IMG/VR virus record: IMGVR_UViG_3300035670_000020
Span: 62,001-126,000 of that record
DNA: 64,000 bases
Reading direction: 5' to 3' (one strand)
Origin: a virus
Shown here piece after piece: positions 39,031 to 61,393 of the stretch. The position numbers and the translations under genes are program-made. Numbering within the stretch: the stretch's first letter is position 1; each line of letters begins with the position of its first letter. Under the pieces are notes generated by a model that was not told where the DNA came from, made no database searches, and was given only the letters and a program-made list of their open reading frames with translations.

Positions 39031-39184
39031 TCCAAACCTCTTGAACAGCCACAACAAAGTGATAATCCGTATTCCAGCTTTGAGAAGGTATTAAAGCTAC
39101 TGCCTCTAATATATGATGTGCTTCTAAATACTCCCAACGTAGTTTATCTGTTTGTTCCTGAATTGTTATTCTGAATTTTCTCAT
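39023..39184 (-). CDS. Small hypothetical protein, 53 aa
   Basis: The ATG overlaps the NAMPT stop codon (ATGA, 39184-39181) and the stop codon overlaps the next ATG region, so it fills the gap exactly as a coupled small gene. The sequence MRKFRITIQEQTDKLRWEYL, then ILEAVALIPSQSWN and FVVAVQEVWNV, is a plausible small alpha-beta fold. Its family is unknown. Confidence 0.7.
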   Translation of the reverse strand: MRKFRITIQEQTDKLRWEYLEAHHILEAVALIPSQSWNTDYHFVVAVQEVWNV

Positions 39185-40695
39185 ACGATATAAAGTCTCC
39201 TACGAATATCTGCCAAGGTATGATCTACCAACAAATTACCGTCTTGGAATACCGGCACTAGTTCGCCACCCTCTTCTTCTTCGTGTGTTACTTGATCCCG
39301 AAGAACATACTCGCCGCTCACTAAATCAACTCTCAAAAGTCCTCTGGCGGATTTCTTCATCCCGTCATCAGTCACAGGGTCTTTGAAAATTTCTCGTGGC
39401 TGTCCGTCCACTTCACAGTAGGTACTTTTTACAGCAATTCCTAAAGAATCTCTGGTGTTGTAATTGTAGGTATAGGAACCAATCCCAAAGACGATGTTGT
39501 TACTGGCAAATCCCTTCTTAGCAAGACGTTCACAAATTGCTTCTGCTCGTTCTCGGCTAATAGAATCTCCATAGATACAACCGATATGAGGATCAAGTTC
39601 CTTGAATCCCTTAGAATTGACTTTACCACCAAATACTTCCCAAAGAAGTTCGATGACACCTTTATATTCGGACTCACTATGATTTTGTTTGTAGTAATCT
39701 GAACAGTTTTCATATGGTAATATTGTACCATCATTGGTTCTAGGATTAGTATTTAGCCCACAAACAATATCTACAGGATCGCCGCTATCTGGACGAATAA
39801 CCATCTTTCCTTCTCTGCTCAAGATTTTGTCCTTGAGTTTTGTGCAGAAGGTCGTGCATACTTGCCATAGGTCGAAAGAATCCGAAACAATACTAACAAT
39901 ACCACTTGGGAATTGATCTAGGATTCTATTAAAGGAATCAATTTCTTGTTCTTTTCCGTAGCTTGTCATGACAGAATGTTCGGAAGCCGGGACAGAACTA
40001 CCAATCAATTCTGTTTCCATATTGGCGTTGTAGTATTCTTCAAGCATAAATACGCTAGGAATAGTATCAGTACCAGTAAAACTCAGAAGATGACCAGCTT
40101 GATTAAACGTACTTTCTGTGCTAGAACGACCTCTTTGACTAAAATCATGACCTTGCCATTGAACAAAACTACGATCATCACAAGTTTTATCGGCCCAATT
40201 TTCAAGAATTTTGCGGTATTCTCGGGCGATAGTTGCATTGACACACAAATCCCAAATACACGTACTCATTTGTGTTTCAAGAAAATTTACCAACCAAGCA
40301 AAATCGTCATGAGTATTTGTAATAGTAAAGAAAGGAACCTTTTCTCTTACAAGACTTCCTTCTGGTAAAGCTTTAATCAAAATAGGAAGATGCCCAAGAT
40401 CATGTAGCTTCTCGATATGTTCGGTTGGCATATCGTAGAAACTAAAATGTTTGTGGAAACGCTTGAATTGCTGGACTACTTTTTCTTTTGGTTGTTCAAA
40501 AAAGTTTCTGTTCCATTGACCTAATAGGTATTCTTTAAGATAGTATTGTAATCCGAAGAAAACGGATCTATCTGTTTGCATATGTTTGAAAGAGCGAGGA
40601 GTAAAATTAGAATATAGACGAGTAATCCCACCTGGATACATTAGGTGGTGAAACTGTTTGTAGGAATCACTATTAAGAATCGGCAAAATTTCCAT
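39181..40695 (-). CDS. Nicotinamide phosphoribosyltransferase-like enzyme (NAMPT/Namat), 504 aa
   Basis: NAMPT family, whose members join nicotinamide to a phosphoribosyl donor. The catalytic-loop His lies at 240 in SSVPASEHSVMTSYG (equivalent to His247 of human NAMPT). FVQWQGHDFSQRGRSS and GTDTIPSVFMLEEYYNANM are other signature segments, and the C-terminal MVIRPDSGDP is the phosphoribosyl-binding region. Length matches full NAMPT. ACAGGAG stands 8 bases before the ATG and a strong host-type promoter 44-71 bases upstream. In NARP1-type phage systems a NAMPT homologue (Namat) instead joins nicotinamide to ADP-ribose pyrophosphate to give NAD+ directly. Which activity this enzyme has cannot be read here. 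Confidence 0.9.
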   Translation of the reverse strand: MEILPILNSDSYKQFHHLMYPGGITRLYSNFTPRSFKHMQTDRSVFFGLQYYLKEYLLGQWNRNFFEQPKEKVVQQFKRFHKHFSFYDMPTEHIEKLHDLGHLPILIKALPEGSLVREKVPFFTITNTHDDFAWLVNFLETQMSTCIWDLCVNATIAREYRKILENWADKTCDDRSFVQWQGHDFSQRGRSSTESTFNQAGHLLSFTGTDTIPSVFMLEEYYNANMETELIGSSVPASEHSVMTSYGKEQEIDSFNRILDQFPSGIVSIVSDSFDLWQVCTTFCTKLKDKILSREGKMVIRPDSGDPVDIVCGLNTNPRTNDGTILPYENCSDYYKQNHSESEYKGVIELLWEVFGGKVNSKGFKELDPHIGCIYGDSISRERAEAICERLAKKGFASNNIVFGIGSYTYNYNTRDSLGIAVKSTYCEVDGQPREIFKDPVTDDGMKKSARGLLRVDLVSGEYVLRDQVTHEEEEGGELVPVFQDGNLLVDHTLADIRRRLYIV

Positions 40696-40738
40696 TATTT
40701 TCTCCTGTAAGATTAACTCTCTGTCGCCCTATGTTGCT

Positions 40739-40766
40739 ATTATACCAAGTCTGGTGAGTCTGTCAA
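40739..40766 (-). promoter_or_regulatory. Strong sigma-70-type promoter before the NAMPT-like gene
   Basis: The minus strand has TTGACA (40766-40761), a 16-base spacer and TATAAT (40744-40739). The start site would be about 35 bases before the ATG at 40695, with AGGAG in the leader. It implies that the NAMPT operon is read early by host polymerase, separately from the PRPP-synthetase-like gene upstream. Confidence 0.87.
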
Positions 40767-40781
40767 GCCCTGGCTGTGTTT

Positions 40782-41048
40782 CTAGTCCTTTGACAATTCT
40801 TCATTAAAGACCCATTCTGTATACTTGTTGATTTTTTCTCTATCTATTTTAGTATAGTTATCTATTACCCAATTATATTGATCTTTTATTTCTTGTTTAA
40901 GGGATTTAATAAAAGATTTGGAGCCTCCATATGATACTGCATTCCACACACGAGACAAAGCTAACAAATATTCTTCTGTTTCAGTATTTCGTGATTCGCC
41001 AATTTCTTCTAACAAATCAACCATTTCTTCTATAGAAACTTTTTTCAT
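40782..41048 (-). CDS. Hypothetical protein, 88 aa
   Basis: The family was not recognised. It is an all-helical, acidic soluble protein (MKKVSIEEMVDLLEEIGESR, ending TEWVFNEELSKD). It is separated from the NAMPT promoter by 16 bases and from the preceding gene by 2 bases. It ends the operon containing the PRPP-synthetase-like and NADAR genes. Confidence 0.55.
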   Translation of the reverse strand: MKKVSIEEMVDLLEEIGESRNTETEEYLLALSRVWNAVSYGGSKSFIKSLKQEIKDQYNWVIDNYTKIDREKINKYTEWVFNEELSKD

Positions 41049-41050
41049 TT

Positions 41051-41335
41051 TTAATATCCTCTTCTTAATTTTTCTAGTCTATCTTTTTCTTGCATTTCTC
41101 TTATTAGGTCTATTGGTGTTTGATTAAATGAATTTTCTGTTTGGACTAAAGCAATTTCAATTATCTCCCAGTTCTCTAGATCTTTTTTAATTCTAGGGTT
41201 TATCATTATTTCACGAAGATGTAGTTTGATGTGTCCTATATGATTCCAAGTTTTTCCTTTGTTAGACCATTGTGGATCATAACCACCCTTACTATATAAT
41301 CCTGTTTTCTTGTGTCTAATTTTATAGATAAACAT
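41051..41335 (-). CDS. Hypothetical protein, 94 aa
   Basis: The N-terminus (FIYKIRHKKTGLYSKGGYDP, WSNKGKTWNHIGHIKLHL) is a small phage family seen in many phages without assigned function; the second half is helical and basic. It starts directly at the stop of the 56-residue membrane gene. No enzyme motif is visible. Confidence 0.6.
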   Translation of the reverse strand: MFIYKIRHKKTGLYSKGGYDPQWSNKGKTWNHIGHIKLHLREIMINPRIKKDLENWEIIEIALVQTENSFNQTPIDLIREMQEKDRLEKLRRGY

Positions 41336-41506
41336 TTATTTACTCCAAAATGCTAAATAAGGTAAAGCTAACGGCCATAAAATCGCAAAAACAAAAGGTT
41401 TCCACAAATCTTCATTTTTGCCGCCTAAAATAGCAAGAAAAAGATAAGCAATAAACGAAACAACAACTCCACCGCAATATATGCCTAATAAAAACATACT
41501 CATCAT
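41336..41506 (-). CDS. Small two-helix membrane protein, 56 aa
   Basis: The ATG at 41506 overlaps the NADAR stop codon (ATGA) and the stop abuts the next ATG at 41335, so the gene is exactly fitted in the operon. Two hydrophobic helices are clear: FLLGIYCGGVVVSFIAYLFL and PFVFAILWPLALPYLAFW. It is a possible small membrane regulator; the family was not recognised. Confidence 0.72.
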   Translation of the reverse strand: MMSMFLLGIYCGGVVVSFIAYLFLAILGGKNEDLWKPFVFAILWPLALPYLAFWSK

Positions 41507-42003
41507 ACTGATTGATCTTCCAAAAATTTTGGTATAAAATAGTTGTCTCGTATGTCAGTTAGAATTTCGCCCAATAAATTCTGTCCACGCCATTTTGTTG
41601 GATCTTGGGCGTCAGGATGATTTTCCGCAAGACCGATCCCCCAAATTTTATCGTAAGGGCTTGCTTCTACCAGAAGTGTTTTTGCGGTCATTAAAAGTTG
41701 TGCGCGTAAATCTTCATTTTGCTCAAATTTAAGGATATTGCCCATACGCACTATACTCTTACAATTCTGTTCCCAAATAACAGCATTAAAATTAACTACT
41801 TGTCTACCTAATTGTTTTTGTTCTCTTGGATCTTCTGACAAAAGAATTAAAGACTCGGTTTTAGAATCACCAAAAAGTCTAGCTTTCTCAGCCATCATAA
41901 ACTGTTCTGCACAATTATATGCACGACCATTTAGATAAAAATTGCTTTTATACCACTGAGAAAAAGGTCCGCTCCAAAAGAAGGTAAATTTGTCGTATTT
42001 CAT
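41503..42003 (-). CDS. NADAR-domain (YbiA-like) protein, 166 aa
   Basis: It has the characteristic FWSGPFSQWYKSNFYLNG, YNCAEQFMMAEKARLFGD, VEASPYDKIWGIGL and WRGQNLLGEIL segments of the NADAR/YbiA family. Family members hydrolyse N-glycosidic bonds of ADP-ribose-like or riboflavin-pathway compounds, and some remove ADP-ribose from nucleic acid. It lies between the PRPP-synthetase-like gene (adjacent) and, three small genes later, the NAMPT-like gene. This makes a role in NAD/ADP-ribose metabolism or counter-defence likely, but the substrate is unknown. Confidence 0.88.
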   Translation of the reverse strand: MKYDKFTFFWSGPFSQWYKSNFYLNGRAYNCAEQFMMAEKARLFGDSKTESLILLSEDPREQKQLGRQVVNFNAVIWEQNCKSIVRMGNILKFEQNEDLRAQLLMTAKTLLVEASPYDKIWGIGLAENHPDAQDPTKWRGQNLLGEILTDIRDNYFIPKFLEDQSV

Positions 42004-42765
42004 TTAAGCTCCAACAGTGGCTAGAGACACTTCGCCTGTCCGATTAAAAATCCTCTTGATTCCAGCTTCTTCTAGAACCCCAAGTCCCTTAGAATATATT
42101 CCGTGACTTGTATATAAATAAACCGAAGCCACATCCTTAGAGTATAAGAGCTTTGCGGCCTCAATAAATGTTCGACCTCCATCGCAAATATCATCAATAA
42201 TTAAAACGCTATGTCCCGCAAGATCGTATGTTTGTTCAGATATTTTTAGTCCAGTAATTTGACCAGTTAATTGATCTCTTTCTTTATCTAAAACGACTGT
42301 GTGAAATCCAGTAGGAACGCAATGCTCATAGCGAATTAAACTACCGTGATCTGGATAACAGATAAAGTCGGGTCGAACTTCCCTAAGAACATCGTATATT
42401 TCTGATGTTGGCTCAATATCTACAAAATTTGATGGAAGTAAATGTTTAGAATGAGCATCATAAGTATATACGCGATTATAAAAAGGAGCAATAATCTTCA
42501 AGAAGGTATTGAGTCCAAAAGTCGTATCATTTGCAATAGGTTTATCTTGACGACCATAAGGAAGAAACGGAATATATAGATTAGCGTTATGTTGAAGTAA
42601 ATCTCCCAACTGACAAACAGTAACTAATTCATGGTCGCCCTCATAAATCCATTCAACATCACAACGCTTACATTCTAACAATTCATCATCAAGCTTCCAC
42701 ACTTGTTGAGTCTTATCTGGAAAAATGGTTGGAATAATTTTTTCGCCGTTCAATGTTACTGACAT
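42004..42765 (-). CDS. PRPP-synthetase-like (Prs/Adps family) enzyme, 253 aa
   Basis: It carries IPFLPYGRQDK (residues 65-75, the ATP-binding flexible-loop type motif), DAHS (103-106) and a PRPP-binding loop VLIIDDICDGGRTF (187-200). It is shorter than bacterial Prs (about 315 aa). Canonical Prs makes PRPP from ribose-5-phosphate and ATP. In phage NARP1 the Prs-like Adps adds pyrophosphate to ADP-ribose. The neighbouring NADAR gene and the nearby NAMPT-like gene make an NAD+ rebuilding role plausible, though plain PRPP supply remains possible. It ends next to the NADAR gene. Confidence 0.85.
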   Translation of the reverse strand: MSVTLNGEKIIPTIFPDKTQQVWKLDDELLECKRCDVEWIYEGDHELVTVCQLGDLLQHNANLYIPFLPYGRQDKPIANDTTFGLNTFLKIIAPFYNRVYTYDAHSKHLLPSNFVDIEPTSEIYDVLREVRPDFICYPDHGSLIRYEHCVPTGFHTVVLDKERDQLTGQITGLKISEQTYDLAGHSVLIIDDICDGGRTFIEAAKLLYSKDVASVYLYTSHGIYSKGLGVLEEAGIKRIFNRTGEVSLATVGA

Positions 42766-43838
42766 TTTTCAATAGTCTCCTTAATAATCTTAGCAGTATT
42801 TTCCCAAGTAAACTTCTTACACGTACCTAAACCATGAGCATTATATACGATACGATTCTCATAACAATGTCTCATATATTGTTTTGTTTGCTGGAATTGT
42901 TTTTCGCCCAGTTTTGCCCATTTTCCTGTTCCAAAAAACCATTTTCCGTCATTAGCTACTTCCAATTCATCAATATCAACAAGGAATGAATTGTCTTTAG
43001 TACAATATTGAGTATGAGCGGAATAGTTAGTTGCTATGATCGGTTTATTCAATGCCATACTTTCCAGAATTGAATTATTCCATCCTTCTGCTCTTGATAA
43101 AAATACTCCACAATGCCCTAACGATATATATTGTGCTAAATGATGTTGTGTTGGTAGTCTCTCAAATATTTTGATCTTCTTTTGTAGAGGAGATAGTTTG
43201 ACTAGATTTTCCCATTGAGCTGTTTCTTCTGCGTTTAAGAACGGATTTGCGGGAAGTAACCATAATTCTACATTATCTGTTTGACTAAATGTGTTATTGA
43301 AGCATTGTATGAGAAAATCGTGAGCTTTTCTTGTTTCCCATTTACCAATATGAAAAAACACATATGGTTGTTGTGGGTCTTCGATCTTTATTCTACGCTC
43401 GTCTTTAAAAATGTCAAGGTCAACTGCTAGAGGGGCTACATAAACAGGCTTGACTACTCCATTATCAATTAGGACTTGTTTTGCCCATTCGCTCGACACA
43501 AATATTCCGTCGCATGAATTTAGGTGTACGCGCTCTTGATCTGTTAATTGATCTACTTCAAAAAAAACATGACTGAAATATGGACCACTTCCTATTCTTT
43601 GGGCGAGGTCAAATTGATGCCAGATTTTTAAGCAGGGAGCTTTGTAGTCAAAGTTTTGGGCGTTTCCATAAGTCTCTTGAACTATAGCTTTTTCTATGTC
43701 GTTATTGAGTTGAATATTTTGGGTACTCATAGGAAACAAACTAATATCAACTCCAAGATTATGTAATCCTTTTAGGATGTTGACGCTTGTAATTCCATAG
43801 CCAGTTGTGCCTAGTGGACACTGTAGATTAAGTTTCAT
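42756..43838 (-). CDS. Glycosyltransferase (GT-B, family 1/4 type), 360 aa
   Basis: The C-terminal nucleotide-sugar half has the typical RAEGWNNSILESMALNKPIIATNY motif, with the E-x7-E arrangement (GHCGVFLSRAEGWNNSILE). The N-terminal half begins LQCPLGTTGYGITSVNILKG. It transfers a sugar from a nucleotide donor to an unknown acceptor. It overlaps the PRPP-synthetase-like gene by 10 bases and its upstream neighbour as TAATG, so it is in the same transcript. Confidence 0.85.
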   Translation of the reverse strand: MKLNLQCPLGTTGYGITSVNILKGLHNLGVDISLFPMSTQNIQLNNDIEKAIVQETYGNAQNFDYKAPCLKIWHQFDLAQRIGSGPYFSHVFFEVDQLTDQERVHLNSCDGIFVSSEWAKQVLIDNGVVKPVYVAPLAVDLDIFKDERRIKIEDPQQPYVFFHIGKWETRKAHDFLIQCFNNTFSQTDNVELWLLPANPFLNAEETAQWENLVKLSPLQKKIKIFERLPTQHHLAQYISLGHCGVFLSRAEGWNNSILESMALNKPIIATNYSAHTQYCTKDNSFLVDIDELEVANDGKWFFGTGKWAKLGEKQFQQTKQYMRHCYENRIVYNAHGLGTCKKFTWENTAKIIKETIEKCQ

Positions 43839-44587
43839 TATATTTTATCTTTCCATTCTTTTGATATTTCATGACATGTTCTTATAAAGTATTCTAAATC
43901 AAAATCACTTTTCATTCGTTGTAGGTCTTTGTGTACCCAGCCTATATTATCAATAGTATATCCTTTACTTGAGTCTATTCTATCTAAGGACGCTGTTTTG
44001 TTGTGTACTGATATTTCTCTACCAGTTAAATAACATTTATGGTTTTGTTTTTCTAGCAATAAATCCATATCTTCTATTGTTAGAGAAAATTTTCTATTTT
44101 TACTTTTAGCTCCCAACTTAACTTGGGCAAAATAAGTTCCTGTTATATTTTTTGTACCTTTATAAGAAACATGATCAATTCCGCGTTTTCTTCTACTACA
44201 ATTTTTACATACTTTAGTTTTTCCTAATTCACTAGCTTTTGTCACATATTCATATCCGCATACACAACGAATTAATATTTTTCTTCTATTATTAATAAGC
44301 TCTTTAGTATATCCAATAACAGTAAAATTATTAATTATATCTCCAGACTTATATTTATGTAAATTATTTTTAGCAAAGCAACTTTTACAAGAATTAATTC
44401 TTTTTATATTTCCTGTAGGAACTATTCTAATTTTTCCACATTCGCATCTAACTTTAACGTGCCAAGCTTTGTTTCTTCTAAAAGGTTTTTTTGATATTAC
44501 TGTATAAAGACCATATTTATCTCCATATTTTGTAATAATTCTTTTTGTTTTGTGGTTTTTACTATCTTTTTGTTTCAATTTTTTCAT
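43838..44587 (-). CDS. HNH homing endonuclease with zinc-finger N-terminus, 249 aa
   Basis: The N-terminal half has three cysteine-rich zinc-ribbon-like repeats (VKVRCECGKIR, INSCKSCF, IRCVCGYEYV, KVCKNCSRRK), of the type seen before HNH nucleases in phages. The C-terminal half has an HNH-like region (QNHKCYLTGREIS, SLDRIDSSKGYTIDNIGWVH). The gene overlaps its neighbours by ATGA and TAATG, with no disrupted gene visible, so it is free-standing and may cleave a nearby target. Confidence 0.75.
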   Translation of the reverse strand: MKKLKQKDSKNHKTKRIITKYGDKYGLYTVISKKPFRRNKAWHVKVRCECGKIRIVPTGNIKRINSCKSCFAKNNLHKYKSGDIINNFTVIGYTKELINNRRKILIRCVCGYEYVTKASELGKTKVCKNCSRRKRGIDHVSYKGTKNITGTYFAQVKLGAKSKNRKFSLTIEDMDLLLEKQNHKCYLTGREISVHNKTASLDRIDSSKGYTIDNIGWVHKDLQRMKSDFDLEYFIRTCHEISKEWKDKI

Positions 44588-45687
44588 ATCAGATATTGTG
44601 GATTCTTATTGTCATGAATTTTTGTTACTCTTATAAAACTCGCGCATTTATTCATATCTTTAATACATACTGCTCCAATATAAGAGCAACATGATCTTAT
44701 TCCTCCTAGTAGTTCATTAATAATATTTTGTATTGGTCCTTTATATGGAACCGTAATTTTAGTTCCTTCACTAGCTCTATAGTCTTTTTTTGTGTCTTCA
44801 TATATCGCTTGTGCATAATGTGTTGACATCCCATAATATGTAAAGTTAATTTTTTGTGGGATTTTCTTTGGGTCGATACTACAATAATCATAAGTCCATT
44901 CACCAACACATTCATCTACACCAGAAAAATAGCCGCCAAGACAAATAAAATCAGCCCCAGCACATAACGCTTTCGCTATATCTCCTGAATTTTTATGTCC
45001 ACCATCAGAACAAACTAGTCCTATTTTTTTAGGTTCCTTTTGTTGTCCATGAGCTATATATCCATTATTTATAACACAACTTAATTGAGGAAATCCACAA
45101 CCTGTAACAAATCTTGAAAGACAAGCCGATCCACCACCAATTCCAACCTTAACAATATCAACCCCGCCATGAATAATAAGTTCTTGTGTAGAAGCCGTGT
45201 TAGTTACATTTCCAGCCATAATTATTGAATCTTCAAAATGTGATCTAACTTCTTTGCAATACTTAACAAAACTATCCATATGTCCATTAGGAACATCAAT
45301 ACAGATATTGGGCGACTCTATATCTAGGGCCAGAAGCTGATTGTCTAGCTCTATTAGTTTGCTTAGTTCGCTCTTTTTATATCCTATACTAATCCAAACA
45401 TAAGGTATATTTTGTGGTTTCTGTTTAAAGTACTGTACTAATTCTTCTACAGAATGATACTTATGCAAAACAGCAATCATGTTATTGTCAGCCATCTTAT
45501 CTGCAATAGGGAATGAGCAAAATCCCATATTGGCACACATAACTGGTGTACCTTTCCATGTTCTAGGAGAATGATAAAACTTAAATTCGCGCAAAATCTC
45601 AATATCTGCTCTACTATCAACAGTAGATCTTTGCGGTTCAATAAGAACATCGTCAAAATCCAATTGGATTTCATTGTTGATTTTCAT
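44584..45687 (-). CDS. guaC: GMP reductase/IMP dehydrogenase family enzyme, 367 aa
   Basis: The beta-alpha barrel carries a catalytic cysteine at residue 189 in KVGIGGGSACLSRFVTGCG and a downstream PQLSCVINNGY, matching GMP reductase (GMP to IMP with NADPH). The opening LDFDDVLIEPQRSTVDSRAD is typical. It is unusual for a phage and may adjust purine pools. It precedes the HNH endonuclease and glycosyltransferase in one operon. Confidence 0.88.
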   Translation of the reverse strand: MKINNEIQLDFDDVLIEPQRSTVDSRADIEILREFKFYHSPRTWKGTPVMCANMGFCSFPIADKMADNNMIAVLHKYHSVEELVQYFKQKPQNIPYVWISIGYKKSELSKLIELDNQLLALDIESPNICIDVPNGHMDSFVKYCKEVRSHFEDSIIMAGNVTNTASTQELIIHGGVDIVKVGIGGGSACLSRFVTGCGFPQLSCVINNGYIAHGQQKEPKKIGLVCSDGGHKNSGDIAKALCAGADFICLGGYFSGVDECVGEWTYDYCSIDPKKIPQKINFTYYGMSTHYAQAIYEDTKKDYRASEGTKITVPYKGPIQNIINELLGGIRSCCSYIGAVCIKDMNKCASFIRVTKIHDNKNPQYLI

Positions 45688-45733: not shown

Positions 45734-46420
45734 TTATTTAACTAGCTGTCTAATGTTTTCCAAGCCCTTCTTTATATTAAGACGAACGGCTTCGCGTGAC
45801 ACCCCGAATTCTTTTCCTATATCATTCAGGCTCAAATCGTCAATATAGTATCTCTTGATTTGTTCTTTCTGTTTTTCGTTAACTACTCCTGATTCTAACA
45901 GAGCATTAAGGTCTTGTTTTATGAGATTTATTTGTTCATTGCTTGATGACTCAAATGATGGATCAGTTTGTTTTGGATCAGCAAAAATTTCATGTAGAGA
46001 ATATTCTTGGTCGTTACTTGGTTTAGTAATTCTATCTAAACTAATCATTTGATAAGGGCCGTTTTCTTTTTTGTATTTGCCACTAACATAAGACTTGATT
46101 GCCCATATCGCACACTGATTCCTATATGAATATGCTGTTTTTGATTTTTGTGTCTTTCCTTTTCTTGTTGGATCAAATCTACTATCGCCCAACATAATTG
46201 CTGTAGCAACGTCACTAATAGCGTCCTCGCTTTGTAACATTTCGTTTTTGAGTCCTGTATAAAACTTTGGAGCAAATTTACTAATCATTTTTTTGGCTAG
46301 TGTTAAGTAATCGCCCAAAGATGCGCATTGTGTCATTGTTTGCATATTTTTCCTTTTCTTTTTCTTGTTAGTTGTCCTAGTACTAGTTTTTTTAGTACTG
46401 TTTTGATTTTTCCTGTTCAT
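45734..46420 (-). CDS. Phage sigma-70-family factor, 228 aa
   Basis: Region 2 is the helical stretch around DAISDVATAIMLGDSRFDP, and region 4 is the helix-turn-helix LSLNDIGKEFGVSREAVRLN near the C-terminus. Two starts are possible: ATG at 46420, or ATG at 46345, which has AAAAGGAAAAAT before it and removes a very lysine-rich leader; the shorter start has the better ribosome-binding site. A strong host-type promoter precedes it, so it is probably made early and may drive a later class of phage promoters. Confidence 0.8.
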   Translation of the reverse strand: MNRKNQNSTKKTSTRTTNKKKKRKNMQTMTQCASLGDYLTLAKKMISKFAPKFYTGLKNEMLQSEDAISDVATAIMLGDSRFDPTRKGKTQKSKTAYSYRNQCAIWAIKSYVSGKYKKENGPYQMISLDRITKPSNDQEYSLHEIFADPKQTDPSFESSSNEQINLIKQDLNALLESGVVNEKQKEQIKRYYIDDLSLNDIGKEFGVSREAVRLNIKKGLENIRQLVK

Positions 46421-46436: not shown

Positions 46437-46464
46437 ATTGTACCATGAGCTTCCTGTGTGTCAA
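46437..46464 (-). promoter_or_regulatory. Sigma-70-type promoter before the phage sigma factor
   Basis: The minus strand has TTGACA (46464-46459), a 16-base spacer and TACAAT (46442-46437), one mismatch in the -10 box. It lies between the GIY-YIG gene and the sigma-factor start, so the sigma factor is placed under host control. Confidence 0.85.
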
Positions 46465-48439: not shown

Positions 48440-48455
48440 ATTAGGATACACCAAT
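48440..48455 (-). promoter_or_regulatory. GGTGTAT late-promoter-like element
   Basis: The minus strand reads TTGGTGTATCCTAATC, directly after the deoxyribosyltransferase-like stop codon and 16-31 bases before the ATG at 48424, with AAAGGAG in between. Its GGTGTATCCTAA core is nearly identical to the copy before 28998. Confidence 0.55.
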
Positions 48456-48994
48456 TAAGCAATAGACATATCTAAAAATCTCCAGCGATCAAAATCGTCA
48501 ATAATAACAGATTCATTGATATGATATAAATAACTCTTAAGATCATCCCATGAAGAAAAAATCATTTCATGAGGTATTGTTCCAAATAACCAGTCCGGAG
48601 CATTTTCTTTACCTTGCTCCATATGTACCAATATAGCTTTTCTTAAATTGTTTGCAGAAAAACATTCCTCCCATGTACCTACTGCGTAATGATCTAGATC
48701 AATATTAACTATTAAAAAATCACTAAGATCAACAAGACGAAGATCAACCTTTCTAATAGTTTTCATAATTTTGGAGAGTTCATCGTATTTACCTTCTTTT
48801 TTTAGTTGTTGTTTAAGAATGTGTGTCTCATCATCCTCTTTACCTATATTCATGGGTTTTTTAAGAGGATTGAACACCACCACACCTAAACTCTGCAAAA
48901 ATGGAGTAATATCTTCTCTCCAGCCTCTACCTCTATCCTTTACTCTATCCATTGCTCCTGCAAGATAAACTCTCTGATTAGATAACCTATTCAA
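48455..48994 (-). CDS. Nucleoside 2-deoxyribosyltransferase-like protein, 179 aa
   Basis: RVYLAGAMDRVKDRGRGWRE, FNPLKKPM and the segment VDLSDFLIVNIDLDHYAVGT followed by WEECFSANN match the nucleoside deoxyribosyltransferase family, whose Glu (here in GTWEECF) is the nucleophile. Members exchange bases on deoxynucleosides or cleave nucleotides. It could edit nucleotide pools or hydrolyse defence signals. It is joined to the glycosyltransferase by a 1-base gap. No partner gene is evident. Confidence 0.7.
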   Translation of the reverse strand: MNRLSNQRVYLAGAMDRVKDRGRGWREDITPFLQSLGVVVFNPLKKPMNIGKEDDETHILKQQLKKEGKYDELSKIMKTIRKVDLRLVDLSDFLIVNIDLDHYAVGTWEECFSANNLRKAILVHMEQGKENAPDWLFGTIPHEMIFSSWDDLKSYLYHINESVIIDDFDRWRFLDMSIA

Positions 48995-58788: not shown

Positions 58789-59446
58789 TGTCAGGTATAT
58801 ATAAATAATGTTGTGGATGACGTATATCATATTCGTCAAATACTTCGCCCACAAATCCTCTGTTTACCCTTTTTGTAGGAAATGGCTTTTTTTCAAAAAA
58901 TGGATCATGAACTACTTTGTCGTTACCTATAATGGGATAAAGTACTTGCGAGAAAAAATCATAGTCTGTTCCATATTTATCTTGTTTATTAAAACCATTT
59001 AATAATTTCTTCATATCGTATAAGTAATTTTTACGATACCCCCACATTCCCCCAAGAATAGGGAATCCATGATAAGGATGATCACGCATAATATGAAAAG
59101 ATTTATCGGTATTGAGCCATTCGTCAACAGCCGCCTTTTCTCTTAAAGATAAGCGACTATCGGTATCTCGAAATATAGAAATATCGATATTGGGGTAATA
59201 TGATGTTTCAAATCTCCAAAACATTCCTCGCCAATCAGCAGGACCGCTCTTAATATAAAGATACGTATTTGGAAGAGAAGATAGGGTCTCTAATATATCG
59301 TCTGGAACATCTGACGCTACATGATAATGACACTCCCAATCTGGATAAAGATCAAGAGCTATTTCAGCGTTACGAATAGCCCCAACGGTATATTTTGGAT
59401 TACTTCCCCATAAACTAAAACTAATTACTTTAAGTTGTTCTGGCAT
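58781..59446 (-). CDS. Glycosyltransferase-like protein, 221 aa
   Basis: It contains FRDTDSRLSLREKAAVDEWL, which carries a DTD-type metal-binding motif, and YDMKKLLNGFNKQDKYGTDY near the centre. These match a family of short GT-A enzymes found in phages and giant viruses, often called glycosyltransferases. It overlaps the macro-domain gene by 1 base (TAATG) and starts the surface island on this side. Confidence 0.65.
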   Translation of the reverse strand: MPEQLKVISFSLWGSNPKYTVGAIRNAEIALDLYPDWECHYHVASDVPDDILETLSSLPNTYLYIKSGPADWRGMFWRFETSYYPNIDISIFRDTDSRLSLREKAAVDEWLNTDKSFHIMRDHPYHGFPILGGMWGYRKNYLYDMKKLLNGFNKQDKYGTDYDFFSQVLYPIIGNDKVVHDPFFEKKPFPTKRVNRGFVGEVFDEYDIRHPQHYLYIPDNE

Positions 59447-59982
59447 TATACTCTTTGTGTTCTATTTTTAGCAGGAGAATAATTGTAGATGACTACTGGT
59501 ATATTCTTCCAGATATCATCAATAAGGTCAGAAATGAAGGCCCAGTCGCCGCCTGCGAGTTGACTACCGAATTTATTGCAGTGCAGTTCTACTTTATCAA
59601 ATCCACTATTCTTGATATAATTGCGAACATTAACCATACAATTGACTAATGCTTCGTAGTTTAGTGGGCGAGGATTGGTTTTTGGATTAATGATTCCATT
59701 TTGGGCGACCATATTCGCAAAAATTAAACGGTGGTTATGAAGGGGACTTTTAACTGTCTCTACATATTGTACATAACCTAGAGGTGGTTTTGTAAGCAAA
59801 TCAAAGTTTGCTGCCACTTCTGGAAATGCGTTACGAACAGCTAGAGCAAATCCACTACCAAATCCTCTAACGTTATTACAAACGTGTGGAATGATTACAG
59901 AACTACCCAAATTACCGCTTAAAACAAGCTTTTTTGCTGTGCTGAAAATTTCGCTATTAACAACACGTACATATGGATTCAT
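59446..59982 (-). CDS. Macro-domain protein, 178 aa
   Basis: The ADP-ribose-binding fold is indicated by VIIPHVCNNVRGFGSGFALA followed by AVRNAFPEV, and GSQLAGGDWAFISDLI. Macro domains bind or hydrolyse ADP-ribose, ADP-ribosylated protein or nucleic acid, or the Appr1p type product. A strong host-type promoter stands 38-66 bases upstream, so it is probably expressed early. Together with the NADAR and NAMPT-type genes it suggests ADP-ribose/NAD-related counter-defence. Confidence 0.87.
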   Translation of the reverse strand: MNPYVRVVNSEIFSTAKKLVLSGNLGSSVIIPHVCNNVRGFGSGFALAVRNAFPEVAANFDLLTKPPLGYVQYVETVKSPLHNHRLIFANMVAQNGIINPKTNPRPLNYEALVNCMVNVRNYIKNSGFDKVELHCNKFGSQLAGGDWAFISDLIDDIWKNIPVVIYNYSPAKNRTQRV

Positions 59983-60019: not shown

Positions 60020-60048
60020 ATTATATCAGACGCAAGAGTACTTGTCAA
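60020..60048 (-). promoter_or_regulatory. Consensus sigma-70 promoter before the macro-domain gene
   Basis: The minus strand has TTGACA (60048-60043), a 17-base spacer and TATAAT (60025-60020), an exact match to the consensus. The leader to the ATG at 59982 is about 30 bases and includes GGAG. The rest of the gap (60049-60148) has no other convincing feature. Confidence 0.9.
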
Positions 60049-60166: not shown

Positions 60167-60208
60167 GTAGATTATAGCTAGTAATATATCCCACCTATGG
60201 AGAAAAAT

Positions 60209-61393
60209 ATGAATATCAAAACTCGCCGCTCTGCATTTACCCTTGTCGAACTTCTAGTTGTAATTGCTATTATTGGTTTATTAGTAGCAATTTTACTCCC
60301 AGCCCTTTCTTCTGCTAGAAATTCTGCTCAGGCAGCAGCAAGCGGATCAAATTTAAGCACATTTGGTCGTGGTTTCATGATTTTCTCCACAGAAGATAAG
60401 CGATCACGCATGAGTAGCGGCGCTTTTGATCATTTAAGAGATGGAGATGTTAGAAAAGTTGGATGGGTTGCTGATATTATTAGGATTAAGGTGTCAAATC
60501 CAGGTAAGGCGCTTGATCCAGCTAATACTTATCAGGTAAATGAAAAGGTTGCCGACTATATTGGAGCTACCAATACAACTAAAGCTAATCCTGTTCGCTG
60601 GAATAATAAAACAGCAGATGTTCATTTTGGTGGAGCTAATGGCCCCACAGATTTTGCTGGATCACCAACACAAGCACAAAAGAATAAATTATGGGAAGAC
60701 GGATATAACACAAACTATGCAACAACATGGCAGTTTAGTCGTGGCGATGTTGTTCCTGGGTCTGACGGAAAGATTAATTCTAATGGAGCTATGAATCCTG
60801 TAACATCTGATCCTTCTAAATGTCCTCTAGATGGTGACGGCCCATTAACAGAAAAGAAATTAACTGGTGGAGGAGTAAGTCGTGATAGAGTTGCTGTAAT
60901 GGGTGCGGCTCGTCCAGGCGACGGTTCTGATGCTCTTGTTACTGATGCAATGTTTACCACCTTTAATAATTTCTTTGGAACAGATCAAACAATGATTACA
61001 ACTGGAGGTATTTTAGTTGAATCATTTACTGATGGAATGAATTGTCCTTTTACTGATGTTACTCTTGGTGGTGGCACAGATCAAAAAATTCATGAAATTA
61101 ATGATATTTTCCCTATTCATGGTTCTCGTAAAACAACTGTTGGAGCAAATACTCTTCTTACAGGAGGATATGCCCAAGTTTTATTTGCGGACGGTCACGT
61201 TGCCAAAATTGAGGATGTGGGCGGTTATCAAGATAATCCTGACAGTTGGCTAGGCCCATATAAAACTGGTGGTGTTCCAACAGCCTCTTCGTTTGAAATT
61301 AATAAGAGTGGCTATGATGAAGTTAGAGAACTGATCTGGCTCCATCAAATAGGTAACTCGTCAGGTGGTGTTGGCGGAGGTTCTGTAGAGTAA
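60209..61393 (+). CDS. Type IV pilin-like / DUF1559-type protein, 394 aa
   Basis: The only long plus-strand gene. ATG at 60209 with GGAG 6 bases upstream gives MNIKTRRSAFTLVELLVVIA and IIGLLVAILLPALSSARNSA: a prepilin leader with Ala before the FTLVE cleavage site, then the N-terminal helix. Near the C-terminus is QVLFADGHVAKIED, the DG motif of the H-X9-DG/DUF1559-type proteins that are abundant in Planctomycetota, Lentisphaerota and relatives. The body is large and beta-rich. It could be a phage-encoded pilin-like surface protein, processed by the host prepilin peptidase. It appears to be host-derived. Confidence 0.88.
   Translation: MNIKTRRSAFTLVELLVVIAIIGLLVAILLPALSSARNSAQAAASGSNLSTFGRGFMIFSTEDKRSRMSSGAFDHLRDGDVRKVGWVADIIRIKVSNPGKALDPANTYQVNEKVADYIGATNTTKANPVRWNNKTADVHFGGANGPTDFAGSPTQAQKNKLWEDGYNTNYATTWQFSRGDVVPGSDGKINSNGAMNPVTSDPSKCPLDGDGPLTEKKLTGGGVSRDRVAVMGAARPGDGSDALVTDAMFTTFNNFFGTDQTMITTGGILVESFTDGMNCPFTDVTLGGGTDQKIHEINDIFPIHGSRKTTVGANTLLTGGYAQVLFADGHVAKIEDVGGYQDNPDSWLGPYKTGGVPTASSFEINKSGYDEVRELIWLHQIGNSSGGVGGGSVE

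Follow-up and report, generated by a model that had tools for sequence, protein, structure and literature searches.

The locus described here raises two questions: whether a Prs-like gene and a NAMPT-like gene of a large bacterial virus rebuild NAD+ by the NARP1 route, and what the NADAR gene that lies between them does. NARP1 (Adps and Namat) is already published, having been described recently as a phage countermeasure to NAD+-depleting immunity. The presence of NADAR near phage NAD+-salvage genes was remarked on in 2022. Overall, the locus is best explained as a phage NARP1 module that incorporates a NADAR, a reading to which we assign a probability of about 65%. The findings that are new in this work are the NADAR within NARP1, the statistics of NADAR linkage, and the loop signature of Adps.

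Gene layout of the locus

The window is the whole stretch of 64,000 nucleotides that was analysed. All genes of the locus are on the minus strand according to the ORF list of the window, in the order Adps, NADAR, three small genes, and Namat. The Adps-like Prs-family protein (42004..42765) has 253 aa. The candidate ADP-ribosyl N-glycosidase of the NADAR family (YbiA-type, 41503..42003) has 166 aa. The three small ORFs encode 56 aa (41336..41506), 94 aa (41051..41335), and 88 aa (40782..41048); they matched no family (at E 0.001 for the 56-aa and 88-aa ORFs), and the 56-aa ORF is hydrophobic by eye and is a possible membrane protein. The Namat-like nicotinamide ADP-ribose transferase (39181..40695) has 504 aa. 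The initial annotation had listed all of these genes, which are present where it placed them, and its spacing of about 1.3 kb between the outer genes was measured as 1,308 bp on the same strand. Adps and NADAR abut with zero bases between them, and NADAR shares a 4 bp overlap with the next ORF. The 159,970-b record and the 209,847-b record each contain one NADAR gene and one Prs-family gene, and the 209,847-b record encodes identical copies of all three proteins (Adps, NADAR, and Namat).

Identification of the Adps and Namat pair

The Namat-like protein was assigned from Pfam/PHROG matches (NAPRTase 149.9 bits, NAMPT_N 41.9 bits), motif, residue map, and tree. It shares 51% identity with SPbetaL1 Namat across 482 aligned positions, and its His240, which had been proposed as catalytic, aligns with His245 of that protein. 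The published motif of the Namat selectivity-clamp helix is GSX-Phi-X-Phi-X-Phi-TRD with X mostly aromatic (PMC12774641), and residues 406-416 of the window protein (GSYTYNYNTRD) fit this consensus and do not fit the Nampt-type motif (GMGGGLLQ..RD type) at the same position. The residues of SPbetaL1 Namat that contact NAD+ (NAM, ribose, and AMP) are identical at 17/20 positions. The three replacements are F392 to Y408, which is aromatic and compatible with the motif, R40 to K37, and A362 to S378. The stacking residue of the Namat loop (SCL) is reported to be Arg, Lys, or Tyr, and the following residue stacks where Lys or Tyr is present (PMC12774641). The window protein has K37 followed by H38, a pattern that the published rule allows, and H38 would then be the stacking residue. 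The window protein is placed among the Namats in a quick tree without bootstrap (32 Namat and 33 Nampt rows, including L334, a NAMPT row that diverges strongly and lacks the usual His motif), where Namat and Nampt are split with an SH-aLRT of 100.

The Adps-like protein was assigned from Pfam/PHROG matches, loop, tree, and model. The initial annotation had described an intact PRPP-binding loop at residues 187-200; the loop was correctly located, but it is not the canonical ribose-5-phosphate (R5P) loop. The sequence is DDICDGGRTF instead of DT(A/G)GT, and Gly replaces the first Thr of E. coli Prs, which marks the protein as Adps-type. The canonical loop is found in 0/136 Prs-family partners of Namat and in 4/4 partners of Nampt as well as E. 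coli Prs. Since the loop itself was among the search patterns that yielded 49 of the 136 partners, the 63 partners found by the Namat motif alone were counted separately, and the canonical loop is again absent (0/63). This criterion for the Adps-type R5P loop was derived in this analysis and not published before, and it offers a simple sequence test that separates Adps from PRPP synthetases. Such Adps genes are labelled ribose-phosphate pyrophosphokinase in phage records. The split between Adps and Prs also has a support of 100 in a quick tree without bootstrap. Identity between the window Adps and the SPbetaL1 Adps that has been tested is only 31%.

Ordinary salvage, with the Prs-like protein supplying PRPP made from ribose-5-phosphate, the NAMPT-like protein forming NMN, and a host NMNAT completing NAD+, is very improbable. 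Namat retains NMN formation from PRPP in vitro (PMC12774641), and the predicted model of the Prs-like protein (pLDDT 93.8) has the PRPP-synthetase fold, both of which this explanation would accommodate. The clamp motif, the phylogeny, and the loop type argue against it, as does the search for a phage NMNAT. The initial annotation had recognised no NMNAT, and PF01467 has no match in the 159,970-b or the 209,847-b record, both possibly incomplete, while 14/14 control genomes matched. Some phages do combine Prs, Nampt, and a NadM-type gene at one locus, and these loci are unlike the window, as are NARP2-type (Nampt and NMNAT) loci, some of which carry the same NADAR subfamily: they have the GMGGGLLQ..RD-type Nampt motif, the canonical Prs loop where tested, and a NadM-type gene. 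Ordinary PRPP/NMN salvage was rejected on the motif, the two trees, the partner-loop type, and the NMNAT search. The preference for NARP1 over an ordinary PRPP synthetase and a classical NAMPT thus holds, with both trees split at 100, the clamp motif, and 17 of 20 contacts, and the window pair is very likely Adps and Namat as judged from sequence.

In the closest relatives of the window Namat (L003 and L010, 77% identity), Adps immediately precedes Namat and is only 27-29% identical to the window Adps. No NADAR was found in the records of these two relatives. The cassette is therefore modular, with NADAR dispensable for NARP1.

Characteristics of the NADAR protein

The NADAR was assigned from its PF08719 match (169.6 bits, cut-off 35.1), active-site residues, and fold model. 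The model has a pLDDT of 97.2, and its best PDB match is 8bau, a NADAR with ADP-ribose (Foldseek E 8.7e-11, TM 0.77). Seven of the eight published active-site residues (E43, K50, R79, W89, R93, E125, D130, and W133 in P. nicotianae numbering) are kept, and E33, K40, R67, W77, E113, D118, and W121 of the window protein are invariant in 32 aligned sequences. The R93 position is occupied by Cys in the window protein and by Lys in YbiA. The E125 position is occupied by Glu (E113) as in the YbiA subfamily; His is described at this position for phage NADARs in the literature. The NADAR is probably an active hydrolase of ADP-ribose (ADPR) conjugates in counter-defence.

The YbiA-type Glu also suits another explanation, in which the NADAR is a house-cleaning N-glycosidase acting on riboflavin intermediates, an activity published for the YbiA type, or a passenger whose pairing reflects a shared accessory-gene region rather than function. 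This explanation is improbable given the linkage described below.

Linkage of NADAR to NAMPT-family genes

Among the best 80 of 387 relatives, 64 non-redundant NADAR loci were obtained, and 22 of them have a NAMPT-family gene within 10 kb (20 within 5 kb, and 21/22 on the same strand). The 22/64 is somewhat favourable, since five of the ten rows in the search alignment (A1) were chosen for an adjoining Namat. Fifty of the 64 representatives were tested as whole records; the 14 omitted ones are L296, L300, L311, and L332 (short contigs) and L339-L348, and five of them have a NAMPT nearby. In the whole records, 13/32 NADARs are within 5 kb of a NAMPT-family gene where 2.8 are expected, and 0/20,000 random placements gave a number as high. 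The distance limits (3-10 kb) were picked post hoc, and 3, 5, 6, and 10 kb each gave 0/20,000.

From the Namat side, at least 120 stretches matched the search pattern, and 50 longer, non-redundant stretches were taken. Five of 11 Namats have a NADAR within 6 kb where 1.2 are expected (76/20,000 placements as high). Another 50 Namat records from two mixed searches, some already known to have NADAR, were left out of this distance test; no NADAR was found in 78 of the 100 Namat records together, among the matches listed. The placement of NADAR beside NAMPT-family genes is unlikely to be accidental. The uniform null of the distance test ignores clustering of accessory genes, a point in favour of the passenger explanation, but the large chain of ribonucleotide reductase, likewise a common accessory gene, is not clustered in the same records (0/21 within 6 kb, with only 1.5 expected and one match below the cut-off dropped). 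Macrodomain genes also track the NADAR-NAMPT pairing in a tally of stretches of differing length, in which the 12/18 count includes the macrodomain gene of the window, 16.7 kb away, four Namat+NADAR loci have NADAR outside the scanned stretch or far along, and L260 replaces L289 in the Nampt list.

The partners at the 22 paired NADAR loci are Namat in 11 and ordinary Nampt in 11, and a NadM-type gene is present in 11/11 of the Nampt+NADAR loci tallied. A role of NADAR exclusive to NARP1 was rejected since ordinary Nampt adjoins NADAR as often as Namat, so that NADAR is not established as a supplier of ADP-ribose for NARP1 only. ADPR is not a substrate at the Nampt+NADAR loci, and the neighbourhood alone is therefore no proof of feeding. 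The earlier idea of a NARP1 version extended with NADAR stands as a recurrent gene association; the role of NADAR in it is a prediction, and the association extends to ordinary Nampt loci.

Only two changes are forced by well-supported branches in the NADAR tree, a weak quick tree with some labels set by hand, so repeated joining of NADAR to Namat is only suggested. Six cultured phage regions were checked by profile, and NADAR and NAMPT occur together in none of the stretches examined: RuSa1, LMTA-148, and Nernie have NAMPT and Prs without NADAR, and Vibrio D479, Serratia BF, and SalP219 have NADAR without NAMPT.

Proposed pathway and comparison with known systems

The NARP1 of Bacillus phage SPbetaL1 and others resembles the window in both core genes, the clamp motif, the catalytic residues, a same-strand arrangement with Adps preceding Namat, and the lack of an NMNAT match. 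The window differs in having NADAR and three small genes between Adps and Namat, a promoter-like site for Namat itself, and a compact Adps (253 aa), whereas Adps and Namat of SPbetaL1 overlap by one base. The window NADAR resembles others of the NADAR/YbiA family (the DarT1 antitoxin, P. nicotianae NADAR 8bau, and phage gp30.3) in fold and active site, and it differs in being embedded in an NAD+-rebuilding gene run and in its Cys at the R93 position.

The closest precedent is RyDEP, a glycosidase whose gene is inserted in the NARP1 operon of mycobacteriophage DyoEdafos and which yields ADPR that is converted to NAD+ by Adps and Namat in vitro (PMC13232231). Both loci have a glycosidase-type gene inside a NARP1 operon with ADPR as the expected product. 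RyDEP has a RyR domain and works as an O-glycosidase on 2'- and 3'-cADPR, whereas NADAR belongs to another family with N-glycosidase chemistry, and its coupling to NARP1 is a prediction. The RyR domain (PF02026) has zero matches in both records and likewise in the control genomes.

Identity, residues, phylogeny, gene order, the NMNAT search in two records, and the recurrent NADAR-NAMPT pairing are observations, whereas the enzyme activities, the substrate of NADAR, and the passage of its product to Adps are what we infer. Host NAD+-depleting defences cleave NAD+ to nicotinamide and ADPR or ADPR conjugates. Adps would convert ADPR and ATP to ADPR-PP, and Namat would join ADPR-PP to nicotinamide, giving NAD+ in a single step without NMNAT. 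NADAR most likely acts on conjugates made by the defence and hydrolyses their N-glycosidic bond, the proposed substrates being guanine that carries ADP-ribose or an ADPR signal linked to a base or an amino group. Such hydrolysis would remove the signal or lesion and return free ADPR for Adps. The enzyme between Adps and Namat thus probably either releases the starting material or removes a host signal; that its product feeds Adps is conceivable, at somewhat less than even odds.

A less probable reading keeps the NARP1 pair and gives NADAR an independent role in counter-defence, in which it cleans ADP-ribosylated DNA/RNA (for example after DarT1-type modification of guanine) or degrades an ADPR signal; the operon would be shared as an ADPR-conflict island, with the NADAR product not needed for rebuilding NAD+. 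All four tested NADAR subtypes, one of them phage-encoded, hydrolyse guanine-ADPr in vitro, and a phage NADAR (gp30.3 type) that was active on guanine-ADPr in vitro gave no protection from DarT1 in cells (PMC11125620). That phage NADARs degrade soluble ADPR signals has been proposed before (PMC7824862, PMC9503650). The equal frequency of NADAR at ordinary Nampt loci and the recurrence of macrodomain, deoxyribosyltransferase-like, and other genes in the NADAR-NAMPT loci fit this reading as well. Coupling would instead suit the direct abutment of NADAR and Adps as well as the RyDEP precedent, and the expected NADAR product, free ADPR, is the substrate of Adps.

With NADAR as a second glycosidase type in NARP1 beside RyDEP, phages would recycle several kinds of ADPR conjugates. 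A broader and rather doubtful proposal is that large phages equip either NAD+-rebuilding core (Adps-Namat or Nampt-NMNAT) with interchangeable cassettes of NADAR, macrodomain, and deoxyribosyltransferase-like genes, turning whichever ADPR conjugates the host defence makes into free ADPR and then phage NAD+, with NADAR as the feeder for N-linked conjugates as RyDEP is for O-linked cyclic ADPR. The specificity and roles of phage NADARs are termed poorly understood in PMC11125620, and their presence in NARP1 makes the substrate question testable.

Promoters and macrodomain-like gene

Three extended -10 sites were identified by sequence pattern in the window where 0.05 are expected; the record as a whole has 14, each of them on the minus strand. 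An exact sigma-70-type site (TTGACA-N16-TATAAT with TG, 40739..40766) is 43 bases before the Namat ATG. The site at 46437..46464 (TTGACA/TACAAT) precedes a run of sigma factor, IMPDH, HNH, glycosyltransferase, Adps, and NADAR, which it would drive judging from gene spacing. The third site (60020..60048, exact) is 37 bases before a macrodomain-like gene (59446..59982, minus strand, 178 aa) that lies 16.7 kb upstream of Adps. PF01661 matched no macrodomain, 59446-59982 included; the protein was assigned from PDB matches (2afc, 2fg1, and 5e3b, 'Macrodomain protein') and from our own macro profile built from neighbouring loci (81 bits). It is likely an enzyme that processes ADPR derivatives, and its gene possibly belongs to the same functional set as Adps, NADAR, and Namat. 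A terminator scan returned two sites, both on the plus strand.

Gene order at the locus

The window covers positions 62001-126000 of its IMG/VR source record, which has 159,970 bases. Identical copies of its Adps, NADAR, and Namat proteins are encoded in a further record, 209,847 bases long (loci L002, L013, and L093). The genes form a run on the minus strand. The run starts with a sigma-factor-like gene for a Sigma-70 region 4 protein, probably a phage sigma factor (45734-46420), followed by an IMPDH/GMP-reductase-family gene (44584-45687), an HNH-type endonuclease gene (43838-44587), a glycosyltransferase gene (42756-43838), the Prs-family gene (42004-42765), the NADAR gene (41503-42003), three small ORFs and, lastly, the NAMPT-family gene (39181-40695). 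The Prs-family gene overlaps the glycosyltransferase gene by 10 bp and adjoins the NADAR gene with 0 bases between them. The NADAR gene overlaps the following ORF by 4 bp, and a gap of 86 bp lies 5' of the NAMPT-family gene. Enzymes of the IMPDH/GMP-reductase type use NAD(P).

Each of the two records has one Prs-family gene and one NADAR gene. The initial annotation recognised no NMNAT, and the same was found here with PF01467, which had no match in either record, both possibly incomplete, and matched in 14/14 control genomes.

The NAMPT-family protein as Namat

Namat joins ADP-ribose pyrophosphate (ADPR-PP) to nicotinamide. The structure of Namat from the Bacillus phage SPbetaL1 was solved by Lan et al., who give the Namat signature as GSX-Phi-X-Phi-X-Phi-TRD and describe it as not present in Nampt (PMC12774641). 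The window protein has GSYTYNYNTRD at this clamp position, with His240 as the catalytic His, and is 51% identical to SPbetaL1 Namat over 482 aligned residues (49.3% by tblastn). Of the NAD+ contacts listed for SPbetaL1 Namat, 17/20 are identical. The changes are F392 to Tyr408, which is aromatic and inside the motif, A362 to Ser378, and R40 to Lys37, which is followed by His38 and agrees with the rule for Lys at this place in PMC12774641. The top PDB matches are 9w5w and 9w5x. Short stretches of them, inspected visually, are consistent with SPbetaL1 Namat, and the two entries are taken to be the structures of PMC12774641. The quick tree of 32 Namat-motif rows and 33 other phage NAMPT rows, most of which have GMGGGLLQ..RD or near it at the clamp position, is split at support 100 with the window protein among the Namats. 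The Namat-type assignment put forward in the initial annotation is upheld by these motif, contact, and tree data, and the protein is very probably a Namat.

The Prs-family protein as Adps

Adps converts ADP-ribose (ADPR) to ADPR-PP. The model of the window Prs-family protein (pLDDT 93.8) has the PRPP-synthetase fold, with a match to T. volcanium 3mbi (E 1e-14). K161, R163, D191, and D192 align with the loops of E. coli Prs, and H105 aligns with the metal-site His of archaeal Prs. The PDB sequence search with this protein returned Prs entries and no Adps. The loop that had been annotated as an intact PRPP-binding loop is the right one by alignment, but its sequence differs from the ribose-5-phosphate (R5P) loop of E. 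coli Prs (DDICDGGRTF against DDMIDTGGTL).

The loop was counted in a non-redundant set of 136 Prs-family proteins for which the nearest NAMPT is of the Namat type; part of this set came from a search using the loop itself. The canonical form, (D/S)T(A/G/S)G(T/S), was found in 0/136, DG(G/A) in 114/136, and other variants in 22/136. The 63 partners from loci found via the Namat motif alone, where the window Adps stands as its identical copy in L002, gave 0 canonical loops, 50 with DG(G/A), and 13 other variants. The canonical loop is present in 4/4 Prs beside ordinary Nampt and in E. coli Prs. The changed loop would give space to the ADP part of ADPR. Phylogeny and pocket residues, the check proposed earlier, place the protein on the Adps side of the quick tree, in which 60 Adps-type rows separate from 5 Prs-type rows at support 100, with a non-canonical loop. 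It is very probably the matching Adps.

The Namats nearest to that of the window (77%) are encoded in the records L003 and L010, each directly 3' of an Adps gene whose product has just 27-29% identity to the window Adps. Among 22 window proteins compared, L003 matches only Namat and Adps, and L010 matches both plus the 48455-48994 product. NADAR was not found in the L003 or L010 record. The cassette is modular, Namat having been combined with different Adps partners. The 48455-48994 gene (minus strand) is PF15891 deoxyribosyltransferase-like at 30.2 bits, barely above the cut-off of 30, and its homologue lies ~10 kb from Namat in the L010/L168 phage (53-61% over the parts compared).

The NADAR protein and its possible role

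The window NADAR matches PF08719 (169.6 bits). Its model has pLDDT 97.2 and only two PDB matches at E <=0.001, the NADAR-ADP-ribose complex 8bau and YbiA. The active site named by Schuller et al. (PMC11543638) consists of E43, K50, R79, W89, R93, E125, D130, and W133. Seven of these eight residues are present in the window protein (E33, K40, R67, W77, E113, D118, and W121) and are invariant across 32 aligned sequences; the R93 position is Cys, and Lys in YbiA. The window NADAR has the YbiA-type Glu at the E125 position, unlike the His described there for phage NADARs (PMC11543638).

In the most likely scheme, the host NADase or ADP-ribosylating defence would produce nicotinamide and ADPR or ADPR conjugates. 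The NADAR would cleave N-linked conjugates to ADPR, Adps would convert ADPR to ADPR-PP, and Namat would convert ADPR-PP to NAD+. The Adps-Namat pair, NARP1, is already published, reportedly first by Osman et al. in Nature in 2024. NADAR inside NARP1 was not reported in the literature searched, whose scope is short of most subscription papers, and is therefore counted as new as far as that literature goes. The closest precedent is RyDEP, an RyR-domain glycosidase whose gene is inserted in the NARP1 operon of mycobacteriophage DyoEdafos and whose product, ADPR, was the material from which Adps and Namat formed NAD+ in vitro (PMC13232231).

Linkage of NADAR to NAMPT-family genes

The best 80 of 387 relatives fetched with a 10-row NADAR alignment gave 64 non-redundant loci. 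A NAMPT-family gene lies <=10 kb from NADAR in 22/64 (11 Namat and 11 Nampt; <=2 kb in 16, <=5 kb in 20, and same strand in 21/22) and was not found in the locus for 42/64. Fifty of the 64 were taken as whole records, and 32 of these have a NAPRTase-family gene. It lies <=5 kb from NADAR in 13/32 against 2.8 expected under uniform placement, and 0/20,000 simulations were as high. Across these 50 records, the large chain of ribonucleotide reductase gave 0/21 <=6 kb with 1.5 expected, which is a weak control. From the Namat side, NADAR is present in 11/50 clamp-motif records among the matches listed, and 5 of these 11 have it <=6 kb from Namat against 1.2 expected (76/20,000 as high). NADAR was not found in 78/100 Namat records. 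NADAR and Namat, where both are present, tend to lie near each other.

Namat-neighbouring NADARs are at several places in the NADAR tree (9 label changes against 16.7 in shuffles), and the gene orders Adps-NADAR-Namat, Adps-Namat-NADAR, and Namat-Adps-NADAR were seen. The scattered places and varied order suggest that NADAR has joined Namat repeatedly, but just 2 changes are forced by well-supported branches.

NADAR is not bound to NARP1 alone, as it is paired equally with Nampt loci, and this is the main doubt on NADAR feeding Adps. ADPR is no substrate at Nampt loci, which leaves NADAR there no task but the removal of a signal or lesion, and the window NADAR may do no more than this. Phage NADARs have been proposed to degrade soluble ADPR signals (Iyer et al. 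2021, PMC7824862; 2022, PMC9503650), and phages that synthesise NAD+ themselves have been noted to carry NADAR genes close to NadM and NadV (Iyer et al. 2022, PMC9503650).

The companion genes were tallied at both kinds of loci. A NadM-type gene is present at 11/11 Nampt+NADAR loci against 1/18 Namat+NADAR loci (a partial hit, 28.6 bits). In the representative NadM-type gene, Pfam recognises just the Nudix half, but the NadM-type profile hits the protein annotated as nicotinamide-nucleotide adenylyltransferase in phage Cp1R7A-A1 (1.8e-58). SIR2 is present at 6/11 Nampt+NADAR and 0/18 Namat+NADAR loci. Macrodomain genes are present at 12/18 Namat+NADAR loci, 6/11 Nampt+NADAR loci, 8/67 Namat loci without NADAR, and 3/51 NADAR loci without NAMPT. 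The counts in the same order are 12/18, 1/11, 11/67, and 1/51 for PF15891 deoxyribosyltransferase-like genes, 5/18, 4/11, 5/67, and 3/51 for Thg1, and 6/18, 1/11, 2/67, and 2/51 for DUF1937. Based on these tallies, many such loci are ADPR-handling gene islands with one of two NAD+-making cores.

A recurrent phage cassette in loci L279, L288, L307, L334, L340, and L348 has NadM-type, Nampt, NADAR, SIR2, and Prs genes within ~12 kb, and its Prs has the canonical loop in L334 and L348, where this was tested. The cassette is a putative PRPP-based NAD+ pathway with ADPR-handling genes.

Promoters and other genes in the window

The window has 3 exact extended -10 promoters (TTGACA...TGNTANAAT), where 0.05 are expected. 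All lie on the minus strand: one before Namat (40739-40766), one before the sigma-factor gene at the head of the run leading to Adps and NADAR (46437-46464), and one before a macrodomain gene (60020-60048). The looser scan found 48 against 49.1 in shuffles, and therefore the strict class alone stands out. Across the whole record there are 14 strict sites, all on the minus strand, and 0 of the backwards control pattern; 10/14 lie at 126-160 kb of the record, which is probably an early region. The strict sites point to a Namat start that is probably early, from host RNA polymerase, and separate from that of Adps. The site of the 45734-46420 gene ends just 16 bases 5' of the first ATG used, and the true start of this gene may be further inside.

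The macrodomain-like protein (59446-59982, minus strand), whose gene has its exact promoter directly upstream, was missed by the PF01661 profile and has PDB matches 2afc, 2fg1, and 5e3b. The 49753-50862 gene (minus strand) matches the actin-like Volactin family strongly (197 bits), which is unexpected in such surroundings. The 60197-61393 ORF (398 aa) is among the few long plus-strand ORFs, and its N-terminus matches pilin-type PHROGs weakly.
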